IMG/VR virus record: IMGVR_UViG_3300032278_000149
Location: 1 to 20,978 of that record
Source of the DNA: a virus
Reading direction: 5' to 3' (one strand)
DNA length: 20,978 bases
Of this stretch, positions 3,135 to 20,943 are shown piece by piece. The notes under the pieces are model-generated. The model saw only the letters and a list, made by a program, of their open reading frames with translations, was not told the origin of the DNA and made no database searches. The position numbers and the translations under genes are program-made. Positions within the stretch are counted from its first letter, which is position 1. Each line of letters opens with the position of its first letter.

Positions 3135-3861
3135 CAGATTCTCGGGTCAGTTCATCGCGCCTCGATTTCCCACACGCTATTATTTTCGTTTGCTCAGCTG
3201 CGTCTATTTTATTTCGCATCGATTTAAAATCCGACATGACTGCGTCCAGCGCGTCATCATCCTCGGAATCCCCTATGCGTTTGCCCCACCACTCGGAATG
3301 CGTCAACGTCCGCACGTCGGCCAGCTCCCTCAGTTCACGGGCGGTCGTAACGTCGGACCTGATCTGGCTGGCCGTTTCTGCCAACTGCGCGGTGGCAGGC
3401 ATTTCTTCAAATGGAGTTACCTCAAATCCTGCTAAGGACATCACCCAACTCAGGCACAACCTGAACGACTTTCCGGTGGCGCGAGTTACGGCCATGCTAC
3501 GCCTCGCGTAGCGGGGCCGGCGCGCCCAGTCCGGTTCATCGGCCCCGACCAAACTCGATGCGCCGCTGACCACTGAGCCATCGCTGAGTCGTATTATCTC
3601 GACGCGCGCGTGAATCGAGCCATCTTGATCTTCTGTTATTTCTTTCTCTCGGGGCATTAGGCCGCACATATTACCAAGCAAGACCCATCCCTCCACGTGC
3701 ACGTAATCCCGCGACGAAATTTTCGTGAATAGCCGCTGCTTGATTATCACGGCCTTGAGCTGATCGGCCAGAGACGTAGCCACCTCGATACGGTGCAACG
3801 TCGGCACGTCCAAAAGTCCCTCCCCTGAGCGCTGCCGGTCAATTATCTCACCATCAGTCAT
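3124..3861 (-). CDS. Conserved phage early protein, possibly recombination/ssDNA-related
   Basis: A 245-residue soluble protein, first in the leftward early operon. It contains DYVHVEGWVLLGNMCGLMP (about 53-71), a stretch on a modified or dosed ligand (LSDGSVVSGASSLVG) and the signature YARRSMAVTRATGKSFRLCLSW followed by LAGFEVTPFEEMP. I recall this signature from a widespread phage family found beside replication and recombination genes, but its biochemical activity is not known to me; a Rad52/ERF-like annealing role is a guess. The gene lies only 12 bases after a hairpin plus T10, so its expression should depend on read-through of that element. It is followed by an overlapping nuclease gene. 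Confidence 0.6.
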   Translation of the reverse strand: MTDGEIIDRQRSGEGLLDVPTLHRIEVATSLADQLKAVIIKQRLFTKISSRDYVHVEGWVLLGNMCGLMPREKEITEDQDGSIHARVEIIRLSDGSVVSGASSLVGADEPDWARRPRYARRSMAVTRATGKSFRLCLSWVMSLAGFEVTPFEEMPATAQLAETASQIRSDVTTARELRELADVRTLTHSEWWGKRIGDSEDDDALDAVMSDFKSMRNKIDAAEQTKIIACGKSRRDELTRESDGF

Positions 3862-3873
3862 ACTTGCTCGCGC

Positions 3874-3924
3874 AAAAAAAAAATCGGTGGTGTGGCCCCT
3901 CGCTACAAGAGATTACACCACCGA
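3874..3924 (-). terminator. Intrinsic terminator-like hairpin with T10, in leader of early operon
   Basis: Read on the minus strand, TCGGTGGTGT (3924-3915) can pair perfectly over ten bases with ACACCACCGA (3893-3884), leaving a 21-nt loop, and is followed at once by ten T (3883-3874). This is the form of a rho-independent terminator. It lies between a strong promoter and the first gene, with only 12 bases to the ATG, so it cannot be just the end of an upstream operon. It must control the operon's own leader. Confidence 0.75.
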
Positions 3925-3952
3925 CCGTAATCGGTTTTTGTTAGCGAGGGGC
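3895..3952 (-). promoter_or_regulatory. Competing antiterminator hairpin in the same leader
   Basis: On the minus strand GCCCCTCGCTA (3952-3942) pairs over 11 bases with TAGCGAGGGGC (3905-3895), and can extend by three pairs past one bulge. Inside it, GATTAC and GTAATC (3932-3927 with 3916-3911) can form a second 6-bp stem. The loop holds the left arm of the terminator hairpin. Only one base separates the end of this stem from the right terminator arm, so the two complete structures should exclude each other. That is the layout of an attenuator or riboswitch expression platform. No known riboswitch aptamer is recognised. Confidence 0.65.
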
Positions 3953-3959
3953 GGGTCCA

Positions 3960-3987
3960 ACTATACCCAGCGCCAAAATCGTGTCAA
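3960..3987 (-). promoter_or_regulatory. Strong sigma-70-type promoter for early operon
   Basis: On the minus strand a perfect TTGACA (3987-3982), a 16-bp spacer and TATAGT (3965-3960, one mismatch to consensus) are present. Transcription should begin near 3953, at the first base of the antiterminator stem, giving a leader of roughly 90 nt before the ATG at 3861. Confidence 0.75.
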
Positions 3988-4008
3988 TGTCATAACGTTA
4001 CTACGTGG

Positions 4009-4227
4009 TCATTCTGCCGGCGTCAGCAGCCGATCCTCGAGCGCGGCAATCCTGGCCTGGTAAGTCTCGCGCTCGGCTCGCCAATGGGCCTCTCGAACCC
4101 AGGACTGCCAAACAAAAAATGCGACCAAAAGCGCCATCGGCCCGGCGCTCGAGAACAATCCCGCCCAATCGGTGAGCGCCACCGCGGCCAGGCTGGTAGA
4201 GCAAATTGCCAAGCTTGTTGGGTGCAT
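4009..4227 (-). CDS. Small membrane protein, holin-like
   Basis: A 72-residue protein. A moderately hydrophobic N-terminus (LAICSTSLAAVALTDWAGLF) leads into a clear transmembrane segment (GPMALLVAFFVWQSWV, 29-44), then a charged helical tail (REAHWRAERETYQARIAALEDRLL). This organisation is common in small phage membrane proteins of the holin or lysis-accessory type, but the sequence matches no family I can name. It lies alone on the minus strand between a terminator-like hairpin and the early promoter. The ribosome site is weak. Confidence 0.5.
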   Translation of the reverse strand: MHPTSLAICSTSLAAVALTDWAGLFSSAGPMALLVAFFVWQSWVREAHWRAERETYQARIAALEDRLLTPAE

Positions 4228-4261
4228 GTCGGATCCGGAGGGCGTACTGGGGGTTCAAAAG

Positions 4262-4296
4262 GCAGGGGGTGACGCGCGATGAACGTCACCCCCTGC
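4262..4296 (-). terminator. Leftward terminator-like hairpin
   Basis: GCAGGGGGTGACG (4262-4274) and CGTCACCCCCTGC (4284-4296) form a perfect 13-bp stem with a 9-nt loop. On the minus strand it is followed by CTTTTG, a short T-run, so it could end leftward transcription. It lies just upstream of the small membrane protein gene and could block late or antisense transcripts arriving from the right. On the plus strand no T-run follows. Confidence 0.6.
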
Positions 4297-4372
4297 TGCT
4301 GCAACATCATCACCGGCATCATCGTACCACCCCACCGGCAATCGGGACGACCCGGAATAATAATATGTTGTG

Positions 4373-4385
4373 GTGTTGACAACAC
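4373..4385. promoter_or_regulatory. Palindromic operator candidate overlapping -35 box
   Basis: GTGTTG-A-CAACAC is a perfect 6-bp-half-site palindrome that covers the -35 element of the rightward promoter. A protein bound here would block RNA polymerase. The HTH protein encoded at the end of the same operon is the obvious candidate. A second, looser inverted repeat (GTGGTG/CACCAC) flanks the -10 region. Confidence 0.55.
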
Positions 4386-4404
4386 TATATGGTGGTGGTA
4401 CATT
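4376..4404 (+). promoter_or_regulatory. Rightward promoter for the regulatory operon
   Basis: A perfect TTGACA (4376-4381), a 17-bp spacer and TACATT (4399-4404, four of six consensus bases). The start point should lie near 4411, giving a leader of about 45 nt before the ATG at 4455. Confidence 0.6.
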
Positions 4405-4454
4405 TACACCACTGAAGTACACGGCATCATCACCACCACCACGGAGTCGAAGCA

Positions 4455-4883
4455 ATGACATTTTGTGAACCACGAGTCGTCAACGGAACGAGCTACGAGA
4501 ACCACGTCGGCGGACCGATCACATGGGACATTCAAGCGAGGTTGTCGGCAACGGCTCTCGTCGAGGTACGATCGCAACACGCAAAGGGGTCTGGGTGGCA
4601 GTCAGGACCGGACCGGTATGTTGCTGTCCAGATCGTACCGGCCGGCCAAGATCCGCTATTGTCCCTAAATTCGCGCGTTGCAAAATGCCGCGGGATCGAA
4701 ATCAGGCAATTCGGTGAGGGCTATTCGAATCGGACCGGACCGCGATCGTCACTAGGTATGGCGATTGCCGATGCAGAGGAATTCGCCGCCGCGCACAACG
4801 CATTGGTGGCGCGTGATTTCTCGAGCAAGACGGCGCGGGCGTATCTCCGGCACAATGGCGAAGGGCCGGCGGAAAGAAGCTAG
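4455..4883 (+). CDS. Small conserved phage protein, unknown function
   Basis: A 142-residue protein starting at ATG 4455, with GGAG eight bases upstream. The central part reads DRYVAVQIVPAG, LNSRVAKCRGIEIRQFGEGY and RTGPRSSLGMAIADAEEF. I recall similar short proteins in environmental phages, without an assigned function. The fold looks like a small alpha/beta domain with a C-terminal helix. It is the first gene of the rightward operon that ends with an HTH regulator, so a role in early regulation or host takeover is plausible but unproven. A hairpin with a T-run follows directly. Confidence 0.6.
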   Translation: MTFCEPRVVNGTSYENHVGGPITWDIQARLSATALVEVRSQHAKGSGWQSGPDRYVAVQIVPAGQDPLLSLNSRVAKCRGIEIRQFGEGYSNRTGPRSSLGMAIADAEEFAAAHNALVARDFSSKTARAYLRHNGEGPAERS

Positions 4884-4898
4884 TCGCTCGACTACGTA

Positions 4899-4924
4899 GC
4901 CGCGCAAGGAGGCGCGGCAGTTTT
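4899..4924 (+). terminator. Terminator-like hairpin inside the rightward operon
   Basis: GCCGCGC (4899-4905) pairs with GCGCGGC (4912-4918) around the loop AAGGAG, followed by AG and TTTT (4921-4924). It could be a partial terminator that lowers expression of the two downstream genes. The loop itself is a ribosome-binding-site consensus. Confidence 0.55.
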
Positions 4925-4951
4925 CCGCATACTCACTATTTCAAGGCGATC

Positions 4952-5323
4952 ATGATGACAAACAACGAAAAGCAGGTTGCCAGCTATTTACGCGATCACG
5001 GTAGTAGATTCGATGGTGGCGGCAAAGCCAGCCGCGCGGAACTGGCCACACAGTGGATGGATTGTTTTTCCGATCCGTTCGAGTGCGCAGACTGGATGGC
5101 CGCAGGTTTTTGGTGCCCGCAAACCGCGTGCGCTGTGTCGTATCTTGGGATACGTCCAGCCGACGTTGCCGCGCTTTGCGCCAACCTGAGCGATCATGTG
5201 CTCGACGGAATAGAAACGGATCCGGTATACGCATTCTGCAACGGCGATCTCGATGAAGACGTGCTAAGGGACAACGACGACGCAAGGTCTGACGACGATT
5301 GGCCGGATGACTCATCCCATTAG
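4952..5323 (+). CDS. Acidic hypothetical protein
   Basis: A 123-residue protein from the ATG at 4952, with AAGG five bases upstream. The N-terminal part (EKQVASYLRDHGSRFDGGGKASRAELATQW) looks like a helical domain. The middle is rich in Cys and Trp (MDCFSDPFECADWMAAGFWC). The last 35 residues are dominated by Asp (DGDLDEDVLRDNDDARSDDDWPDDSS). Such acidic tails occur in DNA mimics and protein inhibitors, but no family is recognised. It lies between two hairpins and upstream of the HTH gene. Confidence 0.5.
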   Translation: MMTNNEKQVASYLRDHGSRFDGGGKASRAELATQWMDCFSDPFECADWMAAGFWCPQTACAVSYLGIRPADVAALCANLSDHVLDGIETDPVYAFCNGDLDEDVLRDNDDARSDDDWPDDSSH

Positions 5324-8707: not shown

Positions 8708-9315
8708 TTATCGATTCCTAATCAGGAAGTCGTCCGGCGAATACGCTTTTGAATCTGCTTCGCGATGCAGGTTAGCGAGCACAGCGCATATCATAGATGT
8801 TTGGCGCTGTGGGTCAGGCAACAGGCCCTCTGAATAGGCGGCTTGCAGTAGCGTAACGTCTTCACTGGTGAACATCCTTTTCACGCGTCTGGGTGGGATC
8901 CCATAAGCCAGGGAGACTAAGAACCAGAATCGCTCTCGGCCTCCGTTGGCAAGTTTTTTGCGATGTCATCCATCTGCTCTGGCCGCATGCCATTGATTCT
9001 TTGCGCCACGCCGAACAATCTATCGAGCGCTGCCGAGGACTTTCGGCCCAGCGCACAAACCTCAGACTCGGACGGCGCGCAAAACACGCCGGCGGAATCG
9101 CACAGGCACACACCAACAAAACAACGGCGCATGCCGATGAGGCTCTTACCGGCGGTAAATTTTTCGTCAAACGCATCGCGTTGGTCGCCTGTAATAGTCC
9201 GTAGATATACGGTGCCTCCCCACTGGGGAACGTCTACTGATTCTATTTTGATATCATCCGCGGCAAGAATATCATCCAGGTTGAGTGCCGGACCATTCTC
9301 TCTGTTCGTCGTCAT
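8708..9315 (-). CDS. Fused tail assembly chaperone (G-T type) made by -1 frameshift
   Basis: If ribosomes slip at 8959-8953, the chaperone's first 121 residues are joined to 81 residues of the -1 frame, giving about 202 residues in total. The -1 frame is open from the slip site to TAA at 8710-8708 and encodes FWFLVSLAYGIPPRRVKRM, SEDVTLLQAAYSEG and ICAVLANLHREADSKAYSPDDF. These match the conserved C-terminal T-domain (DUF4035-like) of siphophage chaperones, with the W-x-L-A-x-x-L-G-x-P and A-N-x-H-R patterns. Independent translation from the ATG at 8875 is less likely because its AAAAGG has no spacing. The unfused form is listed separately. Confidence 0.75.
8917..9315 (-). CDS. Tail assembly chaperone, unshifted form (G-like)
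   Basis: A 132-residue protein from the ATG at 9315; longer in-frame starts overlap the preceding gene more heavily. The segment SVDVPQWGGTVYLRTITGDQRDAFDEKF is the characteristic opening of phage tail assembly chaperones, which coat the tape measure during tail assembly and are absent from the mature virion. The C-terminal part is helical and the gene ends just after a slippery heptamer, in the style of lambda gpG/gpGT. It lies between the tail tube and tape measure genes, as expected. Confidence 0.8.
   Translation of the reverse strand: MTTNRENGPALNLDDILAADDIKIESVDVPQWGGTVYLRTITGDQRDAFDEKFTAGKSLIGMRRCFVGVCLCDSAGVFCAPSESEVCALGRKSSAALDRLFGVAQRINGMRPEQMDDIAKNLPTEAESDSGS
8953..8959 (-). other. 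-1 programmed frameshift site A AAA AAC
   Basis: On the minus strand the heptamer A AAA AAC sits in the right register of the chaperone frame (GCA AAA AAC). Both slipped tRNAs can re-pair in the -1 frame. Downstream, GCCA and GGAG (8950-8947, 8944-8941) can pair with CTCC and TGGC (8915-8912, 8910-8907), forming a stem whose loop holds the zero-frame stop. Confidence 0.75.
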
Positions 9316-9544
9316 TTTTCGGCCAATACGGGAATGTTTGTTGAGACTGATTAGCGCCGCCAAGAGTAGCGATAACGTATGCAATTGCATCCGTTTTCTC
9401 GGACGGTGTCAACTTACATTGCTCATCAACAAGAAAGCTGATCGGCTGATCATTCCTGATGCCACAATAGCCGACTCGCCGGCCGTGGTGATTGATGTTT
9501 TGCTGATCGGCCCAATGGGGTGTAATCGTGAAACCACCGCTCAT
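9272..9544 (-). CDS. Small protein between tail tube and chaperone
   Basis: A 90-residue protein whose ATG overlaps the tail tube stop as ATGA, a strong sign of real translation. The sequence includes HHGRRVGYCGIRNDQPISFLV and a helical segment (PSEKTDAIAYVIATLGG). It overlaps the chaperone start by 44 bases. I do not recognise the family. Location suggests a minor tail or assembly factor. Confidence 0.5.
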   Translation of the reverse strand: MSGGFTITPHWADQQNINHHGRRVGYCGIRNDQPISFLVDEQCKLTPSEKTDAIAYVIATLGGANQSQQTFPYWPKNDDEQREWSGTQPG

Positions 9545-10815: not shown

Positions 10816-11162
10816 GTGGACTCCAATAGCGTGCACCTCGCCTCGAGCCAGATACGATTCCCCACCGGGTCACCTAAGCTGACTATTTCCAGAACGTTAT
10901 CCAGGCCGGCTGACGTTGAAAATCGAATCCTCATAGTACTGTCGATATCATCACGGTAGTGCATTCGGACAACTTCGGACCCTAGGGCGATGACCTTATC
11001 GGATCCGGCTGATTCTGATCCACCGGTAAACAATCGAGAGCAACCCACGTCCGTTGCCAGGTCGGACCACGTCGGCTTTGTTTCACCGTCCGCCGGAGTA
11101 GCCGGCTTGCGGATAGTTGCCAGGTGGCTCAGCACCGGTATTTTGGATCCGCCACGCCTCAT
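10812..11162 (-). CDS. Head closure/head-tail adaptor protein
   Basis: A protein of about 116 residues from the ATG at 11162, overlapping the previous stop as ATGA and preceded by GGGGCG nine bases away. Earlier in-frame starts (11177, 11249) lie inside the upstream gene. It shows the small beta-barrel pattern of SPP1 gp16/HK97-type stoppers: LSHLATIRKP near the start, DKVIALGSEVVRMHYRDDID in the middle and NVLEIVSLGDPVGNRIWLEA at the end. Its place between connector and gp10-like genes supports this. Confidence 0.7.
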   Translation of the reverse strand: MRRGGSKIPVLSHLATIRKPATPADGETKPTWSDLATDVGCSRLFTGGSESAGSDKVIALGSEVVRMHYRDDIDSTMRIRFSTSAGLDNVLEIVSLGDPVGNRIWLEARCTLLEST

Positions 11163-11734
11163 TGATAATCGCCCCATCTGAGACTGTGTATTAGCGAATT
11201 GTAGTTCTCGCGATTGGCAGGCCCATCGATAGATCGATGGTTGAACCAATCTGACACGAGTAATCTGACAGCCTGTTTTGCCTGATCTGGGACGCTAGCT
11301 GCGGCCGTGGTGTAGCCGGCCTGATACGTCACCGCAACAGCATTTTGGGTGGGCTGTGTGTCTGGCCAATCAGAATCATAAGTCGTCCACACAACACCCG
11401 GTGTGCGGTTTTTGTCAACCTCGTAATTTGTGCTGGACCACGTAACTGAGTTGCCGGTGCTTGCCGTATAGACGATAGAGTCCACCACTGAAAGAGGCGG
11501 TCGTGGAAGCTCCATATACTCCCTGGACCGCGGAAAAGAATCAGCCTTGTAGACCCACGTTTGCACCAAAAACGCGCGCCGTGTGTCCTTCTCGACTTGA
11601 CTCCGCGCGGCCTGTACTAGGCCCGCAACTAGCGTTGTGTGGCCCGTAGATGCGGCCAGGTAGGTCAGCATGTCGGGTGTGCTGACAAACTCGGCGCTAT
11701 TCACGGATCTGACTAGGCTATCGGCCAACGGCAC
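11159..11734 (-). CDS. Head-tail connector (gp6/phiE125 gp8-like)
   Basis: A 191-residue protein. It starts with a helical part (TPDMLTYLAASTGHTTLVAGLVQAARSQVEKDTRRAFLVQTW), then LPRPPLSVVDSIVYT and VDKNRTPGVVW, and ends in helices (PDQAKQAVRLLVSDWFNHR). This is the pattern of the gp6-type adaptor that forms a ring beneath the portal; the P-x-x-P-L-x-x-V-x-S-I-x-Y and L-L-x-x-x-W-x-x-x-R motifs are visible. It overlaps the upstream small gene by 17 bases. Confidence 0.8.
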   Translation of the reverse strand: MPLADSLVRSVNSAEFVSTPDMLTYLAASTGHTTLVAGLVQAARSQVEKDTRRAFLVQTWVYKADSFPRSREYMELPRPPLSVVDSIVYTASTGNSVTWSSTNYEVDKNRTPGVVWTTYDSDWPDTQPTQNAVAVTYQAGYTTAAASVPDQAKQAVRLLVSDWFNHRSIDGPANRENYNSLIHSLRWGDYQ

Positions 11735-11926: not shown

Positions 11927-12793
11927 CTAAATAAATTGGCGCTGGTATCGTATTTCTTCGAGCGCACCGGTGTACAACTTCACCTGCTCATCATGCGTTC
12001 GGCTCTGCAAGTCGTAATCCTTCCCGACCTCCACGAGTTGGCCGAGTCTATTTTCAAGTAACGTCTTTATTTCGGGTGCCTGGCCGTTGAGTTGTTTTGC
12101 CACTGCCGATAGTTCGCCATGTGCGGCCGCGCTGCCGACGACCTGTTTTTTTGCGTAGTTAAGTTCATCTAAACTGCGATGCAATCGCGTTTCAATTTCA
12201 TTTTCGTGCGCTGCTAATTTCTGCTCCCACGGCCCGGCATCCTCAATGCCATAGATGCGTTGCGTCTTAAGTAGGTCGCATTGGTGCGGCACATGAACCG
12301 TGATGCCCCGACCAGCTGCGTAGCCTAGCAGCGCCTCACAGGATGGCCGTTGTGTTGAATATTCTGACGTCTGGCACATATCAACACCCCAGATGCCGAT
12401 AGCGTCTGCGCCCTCAAATAATGCATGGCCCAGCATCAAAGATACCGAGTTATTGAAGTACCTGAATGGGTCGGCCCAGCCGGCCGAACATGCCGAGAGA
12501 ACGCCATCAAGTGGATACACGTGCGCGTGGTGACATTGCGCAGATGGTTCGCGGAGCCACAGCTTATCCCCCTGCGCCGCGCACCATTCCTCGTATCCTG
12601 GGTTCTCACACGCCTGGTGCGTTAGGTGGTGTAATTCGTACCACCGGTCCCACCTGGGAAGATCGCAGAAGCGCGGCCCAGTCTGCGGGCTACACGTCCA
12701 CACCTCCCAGGATGGGTCGGCGAAAGGTGCGTGATAACGGCTAGTCGGTGACCTAGCCACTATTGCTACCCTACGACCGGAGGTTAACACGGC
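11927..12793 (-). CDS. Rossmann-like phage protein with C-terminal coiled coil; possible glycosyltransferase-type (DUF115/GT42-like)
   Basis: A protein of about 288 residues. The GTG at 12793 is preferred since GGGAG lies five bases before it; the ATG at 12805 has no ribosome site. The N-terminal domain reads RRVAIVARSPTSR and WEVWTCSPQTG (a Rossmann-type start), then RWDRWYELH, the stretch YFNNSVSLMLGHALFEG (112-128), IGIWGVDM (132-139), EYSTQRPSCE and GRGITVHVPHQCDLLK. The order small-residue helix, then I-x-x-x-G-x-D, recalls GT42 sialyltransferases and DUF115/Maf flagellin glycosyltransferases. Residues from about 185 onward are charged helices, probably a coiled coil. This phage family is known to me without a proven activity. 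It follows the capsid gene by a few bases. Confidence 0.55.
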   Translation of the reverse strand, partial: AVLTSGRRVAIVARSPTSRYHAPFADPSWEVWTCSPQTGPRFCDLPRWDRWYELHHLTHQACENPGYEEWCAAQGDKLWLREPSAQCHHAHVYPLDGVLSACSAGWADPFRYFNNSVSLMLGHALFEGADAIGIWGVDMCQTSEYSTQRPSCEALLGYAAGRGITVHVPHQCDLLKTQRIYGIEDAGPWEQKLAAHENEIETRLHRSLDELNYAKKQVVGSAAAHGELSAVAKQLNGQAPEIKTLLENRLGQLVEVGKDYDLQSRTHDEQVKLYTGALEEIRYQRQFI

Positions 12794-12808
12794 ATCTCCC
12801 GGCATCAG

Positions 12809-14209
12809 TTAGGTGGTGTTTTTGACATGAGCAATTGGTTTAGATGCATTTCGCGTGGAGGCCACGAGAACCTTGCCATCAGTGCGCATGATTCCCAGCC
12901 AACCCACCTGAAGTTTATCCATGAAGCGCTCATCGAAACGAATTACGTCGATGCCGCGGACGTCACGAATATAATATTTCGCGAGATTCCCAAAAAGGAT
13001 AGACTTAGTGCCGCCGGCATCCGTAGAACTAGACGCCAATCGGTTGTTAAGGATGATCGGATAGCCTAATAATTTATCTGGCTCGCCGACTCTCAGAGAA
13101 ACCTGCCACAACGGCTGACCGTTGGAATCTACTAGCTGTCGATACTCCTTAACCATGCCATCGTGATTAAGAAAACCTGTGCCAGGCAGGTTGCGATATT
13201 CGATGTCCACAGAGTGTATCAGAGCGGTTAGCGCGTTGAGGGAAACCTCGAGATTAGCGGTCGTGGCCGCAAACCCCTCGAACGTATCTCGGATGATCCC
13301 ACGTGGCGAAGTCGTCGCCGTGGAGCCGGTCGTATAATCCCGATTTGTGCCGCGTGCCAGGCGTGTTCCCAATGCGCGCCCAACATAGTCGACAAGATCA
13401 GTTGCGGTATCCTCGAGCAGCTCGATGCTGGCAAGCACAACACCTGAGCTGTATTTAGCAGCCCGGAAAGTCTGTTCTGCAAATGGGATATCGCTTACTG
13501 TCGCTACGGTGTTTTCTGCAAGCACCGTAGCCACTGCGGTCGTATCGTCTGCGGTGGCGATGTTTAAATCGTGGCCACCGTCTGTGCGGATTATTGTTGC
13601 GGCCTCGCGCATACCGCCATACCACAACAACGCCTCCTCGACGGTACGCGACAGTTCCGTTGGCACCGTGTAGCCGCCTTGAGAGTCGGTGCCCTTGCTC
13701 TGCGCAGTGGTGGCACGGTATACGATCCCATCGCGCCGAAAATTATCCCTCATCTGCTTATATTCGAGAGAATCAGCAAGATTCACGGTCAGTGTATTAC
13801 GGCCTGTATCCAGGCCCACCTTTTTTGCGGAATCAATAGCTTCGCGGGTCGCATCAGCCCGCAATGCCCAGGCGCGCATAGCCTCATTGACGTCACCGCG
13901 CGTGATGATTTTTTCCGTATCCGCTGGCCTCCTGTCGGTTACGCGCCCGTCATCCAGTAGATAGCGATCACGTGATCGGAATCCGCCGGCCGGCTCATCC
14001 ATTTCGACTTTGAGTTGTTCGGCCTTTTCGGCGAGGTCAATGCGTTCCTTAAGTGCGTCTACATCGTGGTTTAATTGCTCGAATTTACTTCTTTCCTCGG
14101 ACGTAAACGACCGATCTTCTTTATCGATGACGGTGGCTAAGTCTTGAATCTGCTTGGCAGCGGCCGCGCGGTCGTGGCGCAGATCTTTCGCGTGTGAGAA
14201 ATCGGGCAT
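12809..14209 (-). CDS. HK97-fold major capsid protein
   Basis: A 466-residue protein. Residues 1-66 form the charged helical delta/scaffold domain (KQIQDLATVIDKEDRSFTSE, LNHDVDALKERIDLAEK), removed by the prohead protease in this family. The mature part begins around RATTAQSKGTDSQGGYTVP (165-183), followed by strongly conserved HK97-fold stretches: EALLWYGGMREAATIIRT, YSSGVVLASIELLEDTATD, and GFLNHDGMVKEYRQLVDSNGQPLW, LLGYPIILNN, ILFGNLAKYYIRDVRGIDV near the end. The ATG at 14209 has GGAG six bases upstream. Its leader is an unusual nested inverted repeat. Confidence 0.95.
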   Translation of the reverse strand: MPDFSHAKDLRHDRAAAAKQIQDLATVIDKEDRSFTSEERSKFEQLNHDVDALKERIDLAEKAEQLKVEMDEPAGGFRSRDRYLLDDGRVTDRRPADTEKIITRGDVNEAMRAWALRADATREAIDSAKKVGLDTGRNTLTVNLADSLEYKQMRDNFRRDGIVYRATTAQSKGTDSQGGYTVPTELSRTVEEALLWYGGMREAATIIRTDGGHDLNIATADDTTAVATVLAENTVATVSDIPFAEQTFRAAKYSSGVVLASIELLEDTATDLVDYVGRALGTRLARGTNRDYTTGSTATTSPRGIIRDTFEGFAATTANLEVSLNALTALIHSVDIEYRNLPGTGFLNHDGMVKEYRQLVDSNGQPLWQVSLRVGEPDKLLGYPIILNNRLASSSTDAGGTKSILFGNLAKYYIRDVRGIDVIRFDERFMDKLQVGWLGIMRTDGKVLVASTRNASKPIAHVKNTT

Positions 14210-14216
14210 GGGTGCT

Positions 14217-14301
14217 CCGGTAATCTAGTGTGTACGAGGACAGAGCCGGTTAAAATCCGGCGTAATACTGCGTCAAATACTCGTACTGCATCGATTACCG
14301 G
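14217..14301 (-). promoter_or_regulatory. Three-tier nested inverted repeat filling the gap before the capsid gene
   Basis: Three inverted repeats share one axis: CCGGTAATC/GATTACCGG (14217-14225 with 14293-14301), GTACGAG/CTCGTAC (14232-14238 with 14280-14286) and GCCGG/CCGGC (14245-14249 with 14257-14261). The outer two stems are separated by 6-nt strands on both sides, as in a symmetrical internal loop. The element starts one base after the sulfotransferase stop codon. On the message, the last two G of the outer stem belong to the capsid gene's CGGAG ribosome site. It may regulate capsid translation or mark an RNA-processing site. Confidence 0.7.
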
Positions 14302-15054
14302 CTACGCGGTAGATCCCGCAGAGGTTAGCCCAGGCGCTACGGCCTCGGCCTCGCGCATTGTAATGATATCGTCGACCTCTTGCAATATTTCGGGATACCA
14401 GGTGGATAGACTCCAGGCATATTTATCGCGCACCGCGCGAAGTCCATCAGTGCTATAGGCATCCTGCCATCGTTGATGTTCGCTGGTATTCGTCACCTTG
14501 AGGTCGGAGCAGTCTACACCCAGGCACTCCGATAAATTGCCCGGTAAATCCTCGACGCGGAGGATATGCACGTTGCCAGGTATCTCACCGGCCCAATTGG
14601 TGCACCACCAGCGGTACACACCGCCGGCCTCGCGCCACCGGCGGCCACACGTATACACTGGCCCGTTCGACTGCGGGTTCGCGACAAACCTATCAAGCGT
14701 CAAGGAAACCGAACACCGTTCGTCGATATGGTATGCCTCGCCTGCTGCAATCCGGCTCTTAGCGCGCTGCCGCCAAAATGACCATTGGCTTAACTGTTGG
14801 TCGAATGGATTGCGAATCGGCACTATGATTTTTTTCCACCAGTTGAGCGGCTTGCCGGTCAACATTTCGATTGCCCGCACAGGCTGGTGGCCGTTGGGCA
14901 GACCGTCACGCACCCACCCAGGAAGTTTGTCATCGACGAACCGGGCGGACCATAAACCGTCCGATGTTCGTAGCTCGCCCGTGATCGCAGACCCTGCGCA
15001 TTTCGGCACGTGCACAAAAAACAGCCGGTGAACTGGATGATAGCATGTCGTCAC
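14302..15054 (-). CDS. PAPS-dependent sulfotransferase-like protein
   Basis: A 250-residue protein with both sulfotransferase signatures: HVPKCAGSAI (15-24), the 5'-phosphosulfate loop, and IIVPIRNPFDQQLSQW (76-91), the 3'-phosphate motif with Arg81 and Ser89. The family transfers sulfate from PAPS to hydroxyl groups, often of carbohydrates. The length is near the usual 250-300 residues. The GTG start overlaps the protease stop as GTGA without a good ribosome site of its own, so it is translated by coupling with a structural gene. Its substrate cannot be read from sequence; a glycan on the virion or a host glycolipid are the main options. Confidence 0.75.
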   Translation of the reverse strand: MTTCYHPVHRLFFVHVPKCAGSAITGELRTSDGLWSARFVDDKLPGWVRDGLPNGHQPVRAIEMLTGKPLNWWKKIIVPIRNPFDQQLSQWSFWRQRAKSRIAAGEAYHIDERCSVSLTLDRFVANPQSNGPVYTCGRRWREAGGVYRWWCTNWAGEIPGNVHILRVEDLPGNLSECLGVDCSDLKVTNTSEHQRWQDAYSTDGLRAVRDKYAWSLSTWYPEILQEVDDIITMREAEAVAPGLTSAGSTA

Positions 15055-15653
15055 GACAGATCGATCCGCCGCAATGCCGACAATACATCCAACATGTCAT
15101 GGTATTTTTGAAGCGACGACCCGTATTCGCTGCGATCCTCGGAACGCACACCACTCGTCGCGCTATGGTAGGCCGGATAGGTCACCGGCCCCACGTCATA
15201 TAAATCGAGGTCGTCGATATACCTGACCTCTACGTCGTCGCCCTCCACCTCGAAACGGTCGGACGTAGGCACGAACGCAAATGAGCTGCCTGAGATATCC
15301 CCCTTTTCCAGCTTCCTTTTCACGCGCTGGTGATCGGGGTCGTGTTCGTCGTATGGTATTTCGTATCTTAGTCCTCGTTTGTTCACCGTCAATTTCAAAG
15401 TACCTGACGATGTCCGACCAAGCAGATTGTCAGGATCGTGGTTCATCAAGGCGCGTACGTCCTGATGCTCGGATATGGCCCTGTCAAATGCCCCTGGTGT
15501 TATTCGTTCAATGGCCTTAGGCCCTAAAACGAATTGGGTGCCGGGGTCGTCGGCACGCCAATAGACCGCCGCATAACCGCTGATGGTGCGGCCGCCATGG
15601 CTAGTCTCTATGCGTGTTTCGGGTGTTAGTCCGCCCCAACGGGTATCTGCCAC
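15051..15653 (-). CDS. Prohead maturation protease (HK97 family, S78)
   Basis: A 200-residue protein with the U35/S78 fold. ISGYAAVYWR and ERITPGAFDRAI are at the N-terminus, the catalytic His is His72 in MNHDPDNLLGR, the Ser lies in GDISGSSFAF (119-127, probably Ser124), and the third member is probably Asp153 in DLYDVGPVTYPAY, where Glu is usual. It cleaves the capsid delta domain during maturation. The GTG at 15653 is preceded by GGGAGGT at an ideal distance and overlaps the portal gene by 28 bases. Confidence 0.9.
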   Translation of the reverse strand: MADTRWGGLTPETRIETSHGGRTISGYAAVYWRADDPGTQFVLGPKAIERITPGAFDRAISEHQDVRALMNHDPDNLLGRTSSGTLKLTVNKRGLRYEIPYDEHDPDHQRVKRKLEKGDISGSSFAFVPTSDRFEVEGDDVEVRYIDDLDLYDVGPVTYPAYHSATSGVRSEDRSEYGSSLQKYHDMLDVLSALRRIDLS

Positions 15654-17272
15654 GACAGTACCTCCCTCGTAATTAAATCAGGCTTATCTGCTAGTTGTGC
15701 GGCCATCAATTGCCGGATCGTATCCGGCAATTGTGCCGCAGGCACGTCAGCCGCCGATATTAAATCACTGCGGAGAGACGAAAAAAACGCGTCGACAATT
15801 TCTTTCGCTGGTTCCTCTCCGCAAATGGCCGCCAGATCGCGCGTTAGAATCTCGCCATGTTTATCAGGGAGGCAGTCTATCCAGGATCTTAGGTCGGCAT
15901 CTGTTTTTACACCCGCGCGGACAGCTACGGAAGCGCGGTGCGCGTCCTTCTTTAGCCGCACTAAAAATCGAGAGATTTGGTGGCGTGTGGTGGCCTCAAG
16001 CCTGCTCCGGGCGATGTCCTCATTGGGAAATACTGGGGGGGCTTGTTTATTGGGATCTGTACCAGATGGAACCATGTTTGCGGGCTGTAGGTATTCCTCG
16101 AGCGATGCGTCATCAACGTTTAGATTTTCCTTTCGCCGGACGTCGGCTCGGGACATCCACCCGGCTTGGATGGCCTTATTGTAGGCCTCGAATCGTGCGG
16201 AAATATCAGATCGCACAAATGCTGCTCTATTAAACTCGATTGATGTGCCGGCTTGCCATTCCGATAGGCTCAACAACTTGTCAGCCGCAGCAACTTCAAA
16301 CTCGCGCAACCAGGGGTCAATTGCCTCATCGAGATAGCGCTGGTTTTCTTGTTCCAGAGAAGCAAAGCTGGTACGCGAATCATCACCCAGCTTATGGGGC
16401 GGTATCTTCAGCGCCGCGGCTATCTGCCTGACGTCAAATTGCCGACTTTCAATGAATTGAGAATCCTCGTTACTCACTGAGAATGGGGCCACCTCGGCAC
16501 CGCCCTCGAGTATTGCCGGCCGTTGGGAATTGGCAACCCCGGCATGCACCTGCCCCCAGCTTTCGCGGAACCGACGAACAGCCATCTCGTCCTTTAAATA
16601 TCCAGGAAACTTTATTACGACTGACGGCTTTGCATTGTTGGAGAAATAGACAGCCGCATATTGTTGGCTCGCTAGCGCTAGACCAATTGCCTCGCGGAGT
16701 TTGTCGATTAAGCTCCAGCCGGATAAGCCGTCATACCCAAGAGGCTTGATGTGTAGCACCCTATCTGCGGGCAGTAATCGTTCCTCGCCTATGATGCGTG
16801 TTTGGTACAGTAACTCGCCTTCTACGACGATTGGGTACGTTTCCTCCGGGTCTAATAAATCCATAGATTCCGGCCGGCCGGCGGAGTCTCGGAACACCTG
16901 GGCGTATCCGCCACGATGTAATAACGCATGCCCGATAAGGGTCTTAATTAATGTGTGTGAGGTTATCCATTTATTTGACTTTTGGCGTAGCAATCTAGCC
17001 GCCGGATGTGTGCGCAGCTCTTGCTTGTTGCCGCCGGCCGTCCGGCTGAATACTGATATTGGAAGTTTTGCCACATCCGAGGCAATCAGCTCGACGCCAG
17101 CCTTTAGGGCCGGAACGGCCAAGGCGCTATCACGAGTCACATTGATACCTGCGGCGCTGGGTCTATCACTGGCAAGAATCGACCCAATATTAGAACCGGT
17201 TAAGGGAATACTGGGAGATTCAAGTCCTCGATTAAGGACTGCGCAAAGAAATCTACTTGTTAGGCCATGCAT
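15626..17272 (-). CDS. Portal protein (HK97 family)
   Basis: About 548 residues from the ATG at 17272; a TTG at 17287 in the same frame is less likely. Conserved stretches are NVTRDSALAVPALKAGVELIASDVAKLPISVF, HALLHRGGYAQVFRD, PADRVLHIKPLGYDGLSGWSLID, ALASQQYAAVYFSNNAKPSVVIKFPG, FDVRQIAAALKIPPHKLGDDSRTSFASLEQENQRYLDEAIDPWL. The protein is longer than the roughly 400 residues of HK97 portal because of a C-terminal helical extension of about 140 residues. It forms the dodecameric DNA gate. The start overlaps the small membrane-protein gene by 20 bases. Confidence 0.9.
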   Translation of the reverse strand: MHGLTSRFLCAVLNRGLESPSIPLTGSNIGSILASDRPSAAGINVTRDSALAVPALKAGVELIASDVAKLPISVFSRTAGGNKQELRTHPAARLLRQKSNKWITSHTLIKTLIGHALLHRGGYAQVFRDSAGRPESMDLLDPEETYPIVVEGELLYQTRIIGEERLLPADRVLHIKPLGYDGLSGWSLIDKLREAIGLALASQQYAAVYFSNNAKPSVVIKFPGYLKDEMAVRRFRESWGQVHAGVANSQRPAILEGGAEVAPFSVSNEDSQFIESRQFDVRQIAAALKIPPHKLGDDSRTSFASLEQENQRYLDEAIDPWLREFEVAAADKLLSLSEWQAGTSIEFNRAAFVRSDISARFEAYNKAIQAGWMSRADVRRKENLNVDDASLEEYLQPANMVPSGTDPNKQAPPVFPNEDIARSRLEATTRHQISRFLVRLKKDAHRASVAVRAGVKTDADLRSWIDCLPDKHGEILTRDLAAICGEEPAKEIVDAFFSSLRSDLISAADVPAAQLPDTIRQLMAAQLADKPDLITREVLSWQIPVGAD

Positions 17273-17393
17273 AGGTAAGCGCCCCAATGATCAGCATTGC
17301 ACCGGCGACTATCAGCGCGGCCGGTGGTGAAATCCACCACATGCCGGAAAACATTACGCCACACCCGGAAAGAACCGCAAGGTCAGTTCGCAT
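17253..17393 (-). CDS. 46-residue membrane protein between synthase and portal genes
   Basis: A short frame reads MRTDLAVLSGCGVMFSGMWW, then ISPPAALIVAGAMLIIGALT and YAWPNK. It has one long or two short hydrophobic segments split by a Pro-Pro, with a positive end, so it should insert into a membrane. The ATG at 17393 overlaps the end of the synthase gene by 11 bases and its stop lies 20 bases inside the portal gene. It fills what would otherwise be the only gap here. The ribosome site is weak (GGTAGGG close to the ATG). Small membrane proteins beside portals are known in several phages without a firm function. Confidence 0.55.
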   Translation of the reverse strand: MRTDLAVLSGCGVMFSGMWWISPPAALIVAGAMLIIGALTYAWPNK

Positions 17394-18237
17394 GCCCTAC
17401 CATTTTATCGTTATTCGGCATCTGCACACCATAGATAGACCGCCAGGATGCGCGGATATTGCGCGACCATGCGCAGAATAGATCGGGCGTCAAACTGGCC
17501 GCATGGTCGGTGCCCCTCTGCTGCTGGCTAAACGTAATGTGGGATTCAAACACCGACGCCCCCAGAGCTACAGCAGCGCCGCCGAGAGACGTGGTGCCTG
17601 TGTGATCGGACCAGCCTACAGGCTGGTTATACTTGCTTTTCAACGACAACACCTGGAGCAAGTCGACGTTATCCAGTGGCGTGGGGTACACACGGTTACA
17701 GTGCAGCAACACATCAGCCCAATCCGCCGCACAGTCCTTTTCATTATCAGTTGCGCCGCCGGTAGAAACCATAAGTGGCAAACTAGTACTTGTAGCCACC
17801 TCCATTATCAGGTCTATATTTCCGCAATCCTTTGATGCAATCTTGAAAAAGTCGAGGTCCATTTCAATTAATGGCTCGACGCATCGCATGTGGCAGGGCG
17901 TAACGCCAAAATCGAGAGGCCATTGGTTAAATCTTATGCGTTCCCTGATGTGGCGCAATTCAGCAAAGTCGAGGTCCAGGCATGCGCGGTGGTCGCCATA
18001 CGTCGGGCCGAAAGCATGTTCTGGCCGCGGGTGTGGCCTGGCCAGCTGCGCCGGATGATATTCCGCGGCCGCATCACGTGCCTGAAATTTGACGGCGTCT
18101 GCTCCCGATGCCAGCGCGGCCGCGCAAAGGCGTATTGCCGTGTACACATCACCCTGATGGTTTTGGCCTATTTCCGCAATGATATATGGGTGGCGCTGGG
18201 GATCCAGTGGGCCGCCGCGCTTGCTTAAATCAACCAC
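17383..18237 (-). CDS. NeuB/SpsE-like nonulosonic (sialic-type) acid synthase, without SAF domain
   Basis: A 284-residue protein from the GTG at 18237, with AGGGGGA five bases upstream overlapping the stop of the previous gene. It has the full NeuB TIM-barrel signature: AEIGQNHQGD (21-30), SGADAVKFQ (44-52), FFKIASKDCGNIDLI, LMVSTGGA, LHCNRVYPTP, GWSDHTG with metal ligand His212, FESHITF with Glu231 and His233, and RGTDHAASLTPD. The family condenses PEP with an N-acyl hexosamine to give sialic, legionaminic or related acids. Usual enzymes are about 340-350 residues; the C-terminal antifreeze-like SAF domain is missing here. The product cannot be deduced. It is adjacent to a cytidylyltransferase. 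Confidence 0.85.
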   Translation of the reverse strand: MVDLSKRGGPLDPQRHPYIIAEIGQNHQGDVYTAIRLCAAALASGADAVKFQARDAAAEYHPAQLARPHPRPEHAFGPTYGDHRACLDLDFAELRHIRERIRFNQWPLDFGVTPCHMRCVEPLIEMDLDFFKIASKDCGNIDLIMEVATSTSLPLMVSTGGATDNEKDCAADWADVLLHCNRVYPTPLDNVDLLQVLSLKSKYNQPVGWSDHTGTTSLGGAAVALGASVFESHITFSQQQRGTDHAASLTPDLFCAWSRNIRASWRSIYGVQMPNNDKMVGHAN

Positions 18238-18246
18238 GAATCCCCC

Positions 18247-18861
18247 TTAGCACGTGCCGTTATATCGATCACGCATGATTGCTAGATCCGCCTCGGTATC
18301 TAGCGTGTTATCGCCATGATAGTCGGTGCCATCGAGCCAGTGGCCTGCCACCTCGACTCGCTGATGGCATCCCCAGGTGACATGTTCGCAGCTCGCGCGC
18401 GAGAAATCTCGTAAACGTTCCAAACAAATAGTTGTTACCAGCTCAGGCAATCCGGCATGTGTCAAAACGCCAGGCCGGCTTCCCACTCGGAACCCAACAT
18501 AATCCATCCCAGGTTCATATTCCCTCAGCAAGTCGTCAATCCGCCGAGGGTCGATGAACGGACAATCCGCGCAGACCCTGCATATCAGATCGACCCGATG
18601 AAAACGCGCAACGTTTATCAAGCGATCCTGGACATTTTCTTCAGATCCACGTGAGACCACAACGTTGTGTTCCCGGCACCACGCGCAGATCGGGTCATCC
18701 AGCGCAGATACAGTGGTTGCCACGATGACCCTTGCTGCCTGACTTGATTTACAGCGCTCGACAACGTGTTCTAGTATTTGTTTTTTCCCAAGCATTTTTA
18801 GTGCCTTGCCTGGGAGTCGGCTAGATCCCATACGCGCCTGAATTAGCACAGCATTGTTCAC
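18247..18861 (-). CDS. SpsF-like cytidylyltransferase (nonulosonic acid activation)
   Basis: About 204 residues from the GTG at 18861, with AAGGA eight bases upstream; a longer frame to 18963 would overlap terminase. The start MNNAVLIQARMGSSRLPGKAL holds the CMP-sugar transferase P-loop-like motif (8-19). It continues with LEHVVERC, RVIVATTVSALDDPICAWC, VVVSRGSEENVQDRL and RVCADCPFIDP (95-105), all typical of the SpsF/CMP-KDO synthetase fold. Members link CMP to acidic sugars. The stop overlaps the synthase's ribosome site, so the pair forms one translational unit, as SpsE and SpsF do in sporulating bacilli. Confidence 0.8.
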   Translation of the reverse strand: MNNAVLIQARMGSSRLPGKALKMLGKKQILEHVVERCKSSQAARVIVATTVSALDDPICAWCREHNVVVSRGSEENVQDRLINVARFHRVDLICRVCADCPFIDPRRIDDLLREYEPGMDYVGFRVGSRPGVLTHAGLPELVTTICLERLRDFSRASCEHVTWGCHQRVEVAGHWLDGTDYHGDNTLDTEADLAIMRDRYNGTC

Positions 18862-18913
18862 GTGAGGTTCCTTAATGCGGATCAGATTAAATATAGTTGC
18901 TAGTTGATGCCCA

Positions 18914-20530
18914 CTACATCTGTATAACTCCCCTTTCATCGTAAACATTGTCACTGTCGACAACGGCCAGGCCCATCGCCATGACTAGGGCCACCACCCC
19001 GTCAATTTTTCCTTTTGTGCCCCTATCACCGTGGCTACGTTTCTTGCTTGGTTTTCGGTTTCCAGCACCGTCTATTTCAATTACCGTGCTGGCAATCTGC
19101 CAATCAAGGCAGGGGTTTTTGTCATGCAATAGGTTTCTATTTAAGACGGCTTCCTCGACGGCCTTTGTGCCAGGCCATAGGCCGGCATGATTCTGGCTGA
19201 TTTTGACACATTCAATCCCCATGTTCGCGAGGCGCTGCTGTGTGTCCAGCGCTTGCCAGGGGTCGAATGCGATGCGGGTTATCTGATATCGCTGAGAGTC
19301 TATTCTTATTCGCTCGCGTATGAATTCATAATCAGTGGCAGACCCAGGCGTGGCGGTCATATGGCCATCCTGTTTCCACTGTCGGTACTGGCCCTGGTAT
19401 TTTTTTTGGGTCATGCTGATTGTTTCAGCCGGACAAAAAAAATGGCTGAGCACGTAGTAGCGGCCCCCCACAGGGAACACGTATACAAGCGCGCATAAAT
19501 CATCCGTAGATGCCAGGTCGAGGCCCGCTATGCATGGCCTACCTGAAAGATAATCCAGCGCGTTGCCGGCGGGATACTCACCACCGCAAGATGCCCAGGC
19601 GTCTGAGCTGAGCCACCTACTTTCCGACTCTGTCCACATGTTTAGATGCAGATTTTTAAATGTATTCTCGAATGCCGGAACGGTCTGCGCTCGAAAAAAC
19701 ACCTCACGTATATACTCCGGTGGGACACTACGTCCCCAGTTTGGGTTAACCCTTTCCCAGACATCCGGTGACGTCCAATCGTCATTGTCGGTGGCCTCGT
19801 AAATGACAGGCAGGAAGTAGGGATCGGATATGGCACCATCCCGAACCTGCCGCGCATAGTTCCACAGCTCATAGCAAATTGAATCTTGGTCGTGGCCAGC
19901 TGTGGTAATGCTACCGAGGACAGGTTGTAGACGTGCCACCGTGCTAGTTTTCAGGACGTCATATAAGTCACGATTTGGCTGAGCATGAATTTCGTCGATA
20001 ATGACCGCATGACTATTCAAACCGTGCAGGCCTGATGCTTCAGCCGGAATCGTGCGGATAAATGAGTTGGTTGACTGGCACACAATTCGTTTATCCTGGC
20101 GGTATAGTTGGCACATAGACGACAGGTCATCGTTAGACCTGACCATAGCGGCCGCCGGGCGGTAGAGTAGCGATGCCTGTTGAATACCTGACGCCGCCAG
20201 ATATGTCTGCGCGCCTGGCTCGCCATCGCAAAGCGTCAGGTACAGCGCCAGGCCTGCGCACATCGTAGTTTTGTTATTTTTGCGTGGTATGCCCACAAAA
20301 AACTCGCGATAACGGCGAGTACCATCTGGGCGGATCCATCCGAACAACGTTGCTAGAAAGTCGCGTTCCCAGGGGTTAGGCGTGAGTGGCTGTCCAGATA
20401 GTTTTCCCTCGATGTGACAGAGGTACAGCGAAAAAAACTCCAGAACACGTTCCGCGGCGCTGCCGTCCCAAGTGCAATCTGATTTAGTTTCCCAAGGATC
20501 ATAGCCCGCCACGTCGCGTGGCGGATCCAT
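18914..20530 (-). CDS. terL: Terminase large subunit
   Basis: About 538 residues from the ATG at 20530 (TGATG overlap with the small subunit; AAGGTGAT lies upstream). The ATPase domain has a Walker A-like GIPRKNNKTT (80-89) and Walker B HAVIIDE (174-180), followed by ITTAGHDQDSICYE (motif III region). The nuclease domain shows the acidic triad in AGLDLAST (Asp338), AFDPWQ (Asp423) and KGKIDGVVALVMAM (Asp510). It packages DNA into the prohead through the portal. The deviant Walker A is normal for this family. Confidence 0.95.
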   Translation of the reverse strand: MDPPRDVAGYDPWETKSDCTWDGSAAERVLEFFSLYLCHIEGKLSGQPLTPNPWERDFLATLFGWIRPDGTRRYREFFVGIPRKNNKTTMCAGLALYLTLCDGEPGAQTYLAASGIQQASLLYRPAAAMVRSNDDLSSMCQLYRQDKRIVCQSTNSFIRTIPAEASGLHGLNSHAVIIDEIHAQPNRDLYDVLKTSTVARLQPVLGSITTAGHDQDSICYELWNYARQVRDGAISDPYFLPVIYEATDNDDWTSPDVWERVNPNWGRSVPPEYIREVFFRAQTVPAFENTFKNLHLNMWTESESRWLSSDAWASCGGEYPAGNALDYLSGRPCIAGLDLASTDDLCALVYVFPVGGRYYVLSHFFCPAETISMTQKKYQGQYRQWKQDGHMTATPGSATDYEFIRERIRIDSQRYQITRIAFDPWQALDTQQRLANMGIECVKISQNHAGLWPGTKAVEEAVLNRNLLHDKNPCLDWQIASTVIEIDGAGNRKPSKKRSHGDRGTKGKIDGVVALVMAMGLAVVDSDNVYDERGVIQM

Positions 20531-20943
20531 CACGATATCACCTTGAAAAACTTAGCCGCGGCCGCATCAGTTTTGGCTGGGGGTGATTTTATCTTGGCCC
20601 TGTCGCCGGGCGTCCACCCAAACTGCTTGAGGATTTCTTGGGCCTGCTTTAGCGCGGCCATGCCTAGACGCAACTCGCGTGGCTCCGCGGACCCCTTGTG
20701 CTTGGTCCAGACCTGCCACAGTTCACATGCGGCTTTTAGTGCGGCCGTATCTATCTGGCCGAGTACTTGCAGTGGAAGCCCTGTCGTGACCTGATCCCAG
20801 AGCCACCGACCTGATGGGTTTAGTCCGCGGGGGCGCTCCGGTGTGCCTGGCATCTCGCCTGCGTCGAGTCGGTTTGCATGCCGGCAGTTTTCGTAAGTGC
20901 CATCACGCATGTGTTCGCCAGTTGTCTTCAGTCTTCCTCTCAC
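20530..20943 (-). CDS. terS: Terminase small subunit (P27-like)
   Basis: A 137-residue protein from the GTG at 20943, with GAGGGA just upstream. The basic N-terminus (MRGRLKTTGEHMRDGTY and RH..R) is followed by PRGLNPSGRWLWDQVTTGLP, IDTAALKAACELWQVW and AALKQAQEILKQFGWTPGDRAKI, the helical order of P27-type small terminases. The C-terminus is Lys/Ala-rich. It recognises phage DNA and regulates the large subunit, with which it overlaps. It is the rightmost gene; the last 35 bases of the window show nothing else. Confidence 0.8.
   Translation of the reverse strand: MRGRLKTTGEHMRDGTYENCRHANRLDAGEMPGTPERPRGLNPSGRWLWDQVTTGLPLQVLGQIDTAALKAACELWQVWTKHKGSAEPRELRLGMAALKQAQEILKQFGWTPGDRAKIKSPPAKTDAAAAKFFKVIS

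Follow-up and report, generated by a model that had tools for sequence, protein, structure and literature searches.

Nonulosonic acids can be attached to proteins inside the bacterial cell: Maf (DUF115) enzymes are reported to transfer nonulosonic acids activated with cytidine monophosphate (CMP) to flagellin in the cytoplasm, before its export (PMC4065374, PMC11339370). For the legionaminic acid of the Bacillus subtilis spore crust, the transferase is unknown (PMC7439481). On the phage side, epaA and epaB of an Acinetobacter prophage act on the capsular pseudaminic acid of the host (PMC12053666), and virion glycosylation is described for mycobacteriophage Che8 and its relatives (Freeman et al. 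2023, as cited in PMC11256854 and PMC12619734). Covalent glycosylation of the virion has been shown for few phages, and in the open-access literature (subscription papers were outside the search) we found no report of a phage-made nonulosonic acid on a virion. Here, we analyze a linear, uncultivated virus record of 20,978 bases (IMG/VR IMGVR_UViG_3300032278_000149; the window, i.e., the whole record), in which four genes are interspersed among those that build the head. They encode an SpsF-like cytidylyltransferase, a NeuB/SpsE-like nonulosonic acid synthase, a sulfotransferase of the 3'-phosphoadenosine 5'-phosphosulfate (PAPS) type and GTx, our working name for the sialyltransferase/DUF115-like protein encoded after the capsid gene. 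On balance we favor, with some reserve, the view that they constitute a virion-glycosylation module integral to the late head operon and acting on virion proteins.

On the minus strand, the gene order is terS, terL, SpsF-like, NeuB-like, portal, prohead protease, sulfotransferase, capsid, GTx, an open reading frame (ORF) of 66 amino acids (aa) and the head-tail adaptor; downstream of the latter, on the same strand, profile searches identify closure and completion proteins and the tape measure. The ORF map places the four genes where a first reading of the DNA alone (the original prediction) had put them, and each is a long ORF with homologues in other genomes. The tight gene ends that were also described exist at most junctions, which overlap (protease/sulfotransferase by 4 nucleotides (nt), portal/protease by 28 nt) or leave short gaps (capsid–GTx 3 nt, SpsF–NeuB 9 nt, another junction 8 nt), but not at terL–SpsF, sulfotransferase–capsid and NeuB–portal, where the gaps are 52, 92 and 95 nt. 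Promoter and terminator scans returned barely more sites than shuffled sequence did.

The association of the four genes goes beyond chance, since the set recurs in divergent phages and is missing from 80 capsid-matched controls. We scanned sequence collections with conserved-peptide patterns and iterated local profiles, so the frequencies given here are not prevalence estimates; contigs are fragments, and a lineage is a capsid cluster at 60% identity. With NeuB as the sole query, we recovered two divergent phages (33–42% identity) whose head operons hold the complete set of four. Nineteen of the NeuB-fetched contigs, from 11 lineages, contain both capsid and adaptor; GTx is present in every one of them (19/19; 11/11 lineages), accompanied by SpsF in 10 of the lineages and by the sulfotransferase in nine. 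Six head-type NeuB contigs are devoid of GTx, each shorter than 8.1 kilobases and stopping short of the capsid–adaptor stretch. On the contrary, none of the four genes was detected in the 80 control contigs fetched by capsid similarity, which are about as near to the window capsid as the positives and of which 62, from 34 lineages, contain capsid and adaptor (Fisher p ~1e-10). In 44 of 49 contigs, the GTx gene fills the capsid–adaptor slot, and the strand is shared throughout (49/49). Among 50,697 records of named phages, a single one, Microcystis phage Mvi-Yong1342-1, was found to carry it, upstream of terS; this phage has GTx alone of the four, and the whole set was found in no named phage.

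The other three genes change slot yet remain inside the head operon: SpsF/NeuB occupy the terL–portal slot in 11 contigs, protease–capsid in 5, portal–capsid in 3 and GTx–adaptor in 2–3. For the check suggested originally, joint occurrence of all four at the same positions in related phages, the recurrence of the set and the stable slot of GTx stand, while the slots of NeuB, SpsF and the sulfotransferase vary. Neither unrelated functions in profile searches nor single genes scattered at random positions were found. In contig L002, ParB-like and DNA-methyltransferase-like ORFs (recognized by eye) lie between the NeuB and sulfotransferase genes (3757–5076).

NeuB also occurs without head genes in reach, in 30 other contigs, and GTx is present in 1 of these 30. 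Contigs L019, L024, L026–L035, L039, L040 and L044–L047 carry NeuB and SpsF, with neither head genes in reach nor GTx. Such islands away from head genes probably have a separate use, on host-surface glycans, and the contrast with them strengthens the earlier argument that interleaving with capsid genes speaks against a cargo island. Their existence in other phages also lends weight to another explanation of the window, in which the same enzymes would place a (sulfated) nonulosonic acid on envelope glycans of the host, either while infection proceeds or in the lysogen, to achieve superinfection exclusion or masking; phage genes altering host-surface nonulosonic acids are known (PMC12053666, PMC6586298). 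We nevertheless judge host-surface remodeling unlikely here: the genes belong to the late head operon with GTx tied to the capsid gene, the hydropathy of the four window proteins reveals no transmembrane segment, no membrane glycosyltransferase or polymerase lies in the vicinity, and the island-type phages mostly do without GTx.

The SpsF-like protein belongs to the CTP_transf_3 family (PF02348, 91 bits for a cut-off of 22.6), carries the nucleotide loop ARxGSxRLPGK in the form ARMGSSRLPGK and has a cytidylyltransferase as its closest solved structure (6oew, E 5e-18); it would make a CMP-sugar. The synthase is a member of the NeuB family, and its K50, H212 and H233 match K53, H215 and H236 of N. 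meningitidis SiaC, which we take to be the lysine binding phosphoenolpyruvate (PEP) and the metal-binding histidines. Its scores are far under the cut-offs of the Neu5Ac and Pse equivalogs (159 vs. 400 and 130 vs. 340 bits), so that its product is not readable from them.

The window sulfotransferase remains under the cut-off of Pfam Sulfotransfer_2 (14.3 bits, E 0.046, cut-off 22), and a PDB sequence search using a three-member alignment returned no match. However, its PAPS motifs, HVPKCAG and IRNPFDQQLSQW, are kept in relatives: in an alignment of 31 sequences, the 5'-phosphosulfate-binding (5'-PSB, PKxGG/PKCAG) and 3'-phosphate-binding (3'-PB, RxPxxxxxS) motifs are invariant or nearly so, and H15, K18, G21, R81, P83 and S89 are invariant. 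The nearest solved folds of its AlphaFold2 (AF2) model (predicted local distance difference test score, pLDDT, 88) are nearly all sulfotransferases (Foldseek, best E 6e-3). Motifs and fold together bear out the enzyme predicted between protease and capsid, and it is from this single enzyme that we infer sulfation of the sugar.

For the window GTx, no match was found in Pfam, PHROG or NCBIfam, and 2 of 57 GTx members matched PHROG families, weakly, both of unknown function. The AF2 model (pLDDT 87) consists of a core (residues ~1–190) and a coiled-coil hairpin (192–290). Its top 14 Foldseek matches are all CstII, a GT42 sialyltransferase (probability 0.95–1.00), and GT42 enzymes also rank first when the sequence profile is compared with solved proteins, though with E values of 0.05–0.27; some structural neighbors in BFVD carry the names MptE-like or DUF115. 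The two rankings agree with the sialyltransferase/DUF115-like motif noticed originally, and GTx is predicted from its modeled fold to be a glycosyltransferase of an uncatalogued family.

GTx is not restricted to phages. In Bacillota metagenome-assembled genomes (L157, L159, L161–L164), it is found, often paired, head to head with SpsF and NeuB, and other Bacillota loci associate it with only one of these two genes. No phage gene, capsid gene included, was detected in these stretches; the presence of GTx beside NeuB/SpsF without a capsid gene points to a user of CMP-sugars. The SpsF copy tested, that of L163, forms a fusion with a KdsC-like phosphatase, which suggests a Kdn-type chemistry (phosphorylated hexose plus PEP), and in L159 and L162 a YheC/D ATP-grasp gene follows the GTx/SpsF/NeuB genes. 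Searched against 73 genomes from the Bacillota class, 142 from the class of G007 and control genomes, the GT42 Pfam model matched nothing. The chromosomal GTx proteins are possible transferases for spore-coat-type nonulosonic acids. We put forward, as a tentative proposal that falls a little short of an even chance, that GTx is a widespread family of CMP-nonulosonic-acid protein glycosyltransferases, which would sialylate HK97-type heads (and, in some phages, sulfate them) and would also be the missing transferase of some Bacillota NeuB/SpsF-KdsC (spore-coat-type) loci.

A different view of GTx would make it a structural or assembly protein of GT42 fold, NeuB, SpsF and the sulfotransferase serving a separate purpose. 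Its long C-terminal coiled coil, its weak catalytic correspondence to CstII, its position by the capsid and its frequent occurrence in sequences where neither NeuB nor SpsF is in view would suit such a role, which we find improbable given its presence in every head-operon NeuB contig with capsid and adaptor, against none of the controls, and its place beside NeuB/SpsF in chromosomal loci where no capsid gene was detected.

Under the reading of GTx as the transferase of a virion-glycosylation module, NeuB would join a hexose, provided by the host and modified by the phage in some relatives, with PEP to produce a nonulosonic acid that the SpsF-like enzyme would convert into a CMP-sugar. GTx, cytosolic and produced directly after the capsid protein, would then move this sugar to a head protein, either onto a serine or threonine or onto a glycan already present, on the model of the Maf enzymes and flagellin. 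With PAPS from the host, the sulfotransferase would sulfate this sugar or a neighboring glycan, and the outcome would be a negatively charged shell over the capsid or its decoration proteins. Supply of the upstream sugar genes by the host, as proposed originally, is plausible, and may be unneeded should a common hexose serve the synthase as substrate (Kdn-type reaction).

Some relatives carry further genes, of kinds to be expected in a pathway that modifies sugars. A NeuC-type epimerase lies between NeuB and SpsF in L069 (above cut-off) and L092. L120 displays, between GTx and adaptor, SpsF, a Gfo/Idh oxidoreductase, a DegT/PseC-like (PseC/LegC-type) aminotransferase and a GNAT acetyltransferase, and methyltransferase genes are found within the block in L009, L018, L074 and L082. 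In L036 (6551–7282), a protein with an adenosine-5'-phosphosulfate (APS)-kinase-like domain and a nucleotidyltransferase-like part is encoded next to the sulfotransferase gene and may supply PAPS. In L120, the Gfo/Idh, DegT/PseC-like and GNAT genes together with a WbuX-type amidotransferase gene downstream of the tail genes (14849–20692) amount to a large part of a nonulosonic-acid pathway encoded within a structural operon of a phage. In addition, two families of small Ser/Thr-rich (19–31%) proteins are encoded between capsid and GTx, in ~25 loci each compared with 2/80 controls, and L015 has an extra paralogue between SpsF and NeuB. They are possible head-decoration proteins and good candidate glycan acceptors.

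Several observations weigh against this reading. Contigs for the lineage tests were retrieved with conserved-peptide patterns and are not a random sample. In the sequence available, many GTx phages have neither NeuB nor SpsF, and GTx may therefore act with other CMP-sugars. None of the 57 GTx members matches Pfam, including the CST-I (GT42) and MptE-like/DUF115 models; the likeness to CstII is at the level of the fold only (template modeling score 0.32–0.42, root-mean-square deviation 7–9 Å, 12% identity), and the near-invariant residues W36, E57, H59, E148, Y149, Q152 and R153 have no assigned role. While the Pfam matches uphold the family assignments made originally for NeuB and SpsF, the window NeuB is a TIM barrel alone, devoid of the C-terminal SAF (antifreeze-like) domain of L002 and L003, and R182 occupies the position of SiaC N184; its substrate may therefore differ. 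The SAF-less form is common to the closest clade (L005, L006, L008, L011, L012, L014 and L017), and the chromosomal NeuB of L163 is also short (291 aa), so the window enzyme would belong to a short subclass. Finally, the clade of the window has none of the Ser/Thr-rich candidate acceptors, and the acceptor there must be the capsid or another protein.

The history of NeuB appears to be one of repeated entry into head operons. On the maximum-likelihood NeuB tree, the "head operon" label requires 6 changes, at least 3 of them forced by well-supported branches; several phage groups therefore seem to have taken up NeuB into the head operon separately, losses being an alternative for some of the changes. 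Mantel correlations of distances are 0.49 for NeuB–SpsF and 0.56 for sulfotransferase–NeuB, against 0.20–0.27 with the capsid, i.e., the sugar genes move with one another more than they do with the capsid gene. Purifying selection acts on the genes in close pairs, the ratio of nonsynonymous to synonymous substitutions (dN/dS) being 0.04–0.16 for NeuB, SpsF and the sulfotransferase (two moderately diverged pairs) and 0.07 for GTx (one close pair), values that come from few pairs and are partly saturated. An anti-restriction role, in which the sugar would modify the DNA of the phage or some other target inside the cell, would have a precedent in the phage glycosyltransferases that hypermodify DNA (cited in PMC12619734). 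We consider it very improbable, because no pyrimidine hydroxymethylase or other base-hypermodification gene was recognized within the window; moreover, the genes occupy a late head-operon position and the chromosomal GTx homologues sit with spore-coat-type sugar genes. That the window, an uncultivated linear record, is a chimeric contig or an unselected capture of cellular sugar genes can largely be dismissed, as the arrangement repeats in many independent contigs, with purifying selection in close pairs and several independent entries.

The location of the sugar genes in the operon that builds heads suggests that this phage, like many other uncultivated ones, covers its own particles with a sugar that resembles sialic acid and is probably sulfated in many cases. 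Of the overall interpretation first proposed, the co-occurring set and the recurrent, multiply reached placement in the head operon are upheld, and the guessed functions agree with profile and structure searches, whereas a sugar on the virion, its sulfation and its type are predictions. If true, acidic, sulfated coats would alter the sticking of virions to surfaces, their recognition and their adsorption. If GTx is a new glycosyltransferase family, it would also supply candidates for the transferase step still missing from bacterial nonulosonic-acid loci, the chromosomal copies known here coming from Bacillota metagenome-assembled genomes. A sugar-making and sugar-attaching set forms part of the head operon in many uncultivated phages of divergent lineages, and it came to be there more than once.

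The features are collected in Table 1. Elsewhere in the window, a trypsin-like protease (885–1823; PHROG protease, E 2e-11) has a collagen-like GPxGPxG stretch toward its C-terminus, and two overlapping ORFs ahead of the tape measure gene (9272–9544 and 8917–9390) are arranged as genes of frameshift-produced tail assembly chaperones usually are.

Table 1. Head-operon genes of the window, Ser/Thr-rich proteins of relatives and chromosomal GTx loci.
Feature	Source	Coordinates	Strand	Evidence
Terminase small subunit (P27-like), head operon start	window	20530..20943	-	PHROG 83 E 3e-8; TIGR01558 E 4e-5 (below cut-off)
Terminase large subunit	window	18914..20533	-	Pfam TerL nuclease and ATPase models
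SpsF-like cytidylyltransferase, 204 aa	window	18247..18861	-	Pfam CTP_transf_3 E 1e-25
NeuB/SpsE-like nonulosonic acid synthase, 284 aa	window	17383..18237	-	Pfam NeuB (PF03102) E 1e-44
Portal protein	window	15626..17287	-	Phage_portal E 2e-90
Prohead protease S78	window	15051..15653	-	Peptidase_S78 E 2e-35
PAPS-type sulfotransferase, 250 aa	window	14302..15054	-	Conserved PAPS motifs; AF2/Foldseek fold
Major capsid protein, HK97 fold	window	12809..14209	-	TIGR01554 E 2e-64
GTx, predicted GT42-like/Maf-like glycosyltransferase	window	11927..12805	-	AF2/Foldseek and profile search
Head-tail adaptor (gp6-like), last of head block	window	11159..11734	-	PHROG 442 E 3e-18
Ser/Thr-rich protein	L003	9122-9637		
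Ser/Thr-rich proteins	L015	3015-3701, 10271-10894		
Ser/Thr-rich proteins	L002	9745-10871		
Chromosomal GTx	Bacillota loci L157, L159-L164, L249-L254			

To our knowledge, neither nonulosonic-acid synthesis nor a sulfotransferase is reported for Che8-type phages. The likeness to Che8 lies in phage glycosyltransferases that decorate the virion, the targets being there the capsid and the tail tube, and being here predicted from the genes; in its relative Maravista, PMC11256854 places the glycosyltransferase genes near the 3' end of the genome, whereas ours lie in the head operon. With epaA/epaB, the locus shares nonulosonic acid enzymes carried by a phage, but these modify the host capsule, and both the enzymes and the place of the genes differ. 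The sps genes of B. subtilis, which produce the legionaminic acid of the spore crust (PMC7439481), provide in SpsE/SpsF the closest named pathway pair, but they serve a spore coat and not a phage, and form a full six-enzyme pathway. Among solved proteins, the GT42 enzyme CstII of Campylobacter gives GTx its best fold match, and GT42 enzymes its best profile matches; unlike CstII, GTx, at 12% identity, has no CST-I Pfam match, has a coiled-coil tail, and its histidine base was not located. The Maf flagellin systems with CMP-pseudaminic/legionaminic pathways (Aeromonas, Campylobacter and Clostridium; PMC4065374, PMC9298399 and PMC11339370) are our comparison system. Unlike them, the predicted module lies in a phage head operon together with a sulfotransferase, and GTx has no Pfam Maf/DUF115 match. 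As in these systems, a NeuB-type synthase, a cytidylyltransferase and a cytosolic sialyltransferase-like enzyme are encoded near the gene of an abundant (in the phage, presumed) target protein, and the Ser/Thr O-glycosylation ahead of assembly that characterizes the Maf systems would, by analogy, be predicted for the phage head as well.

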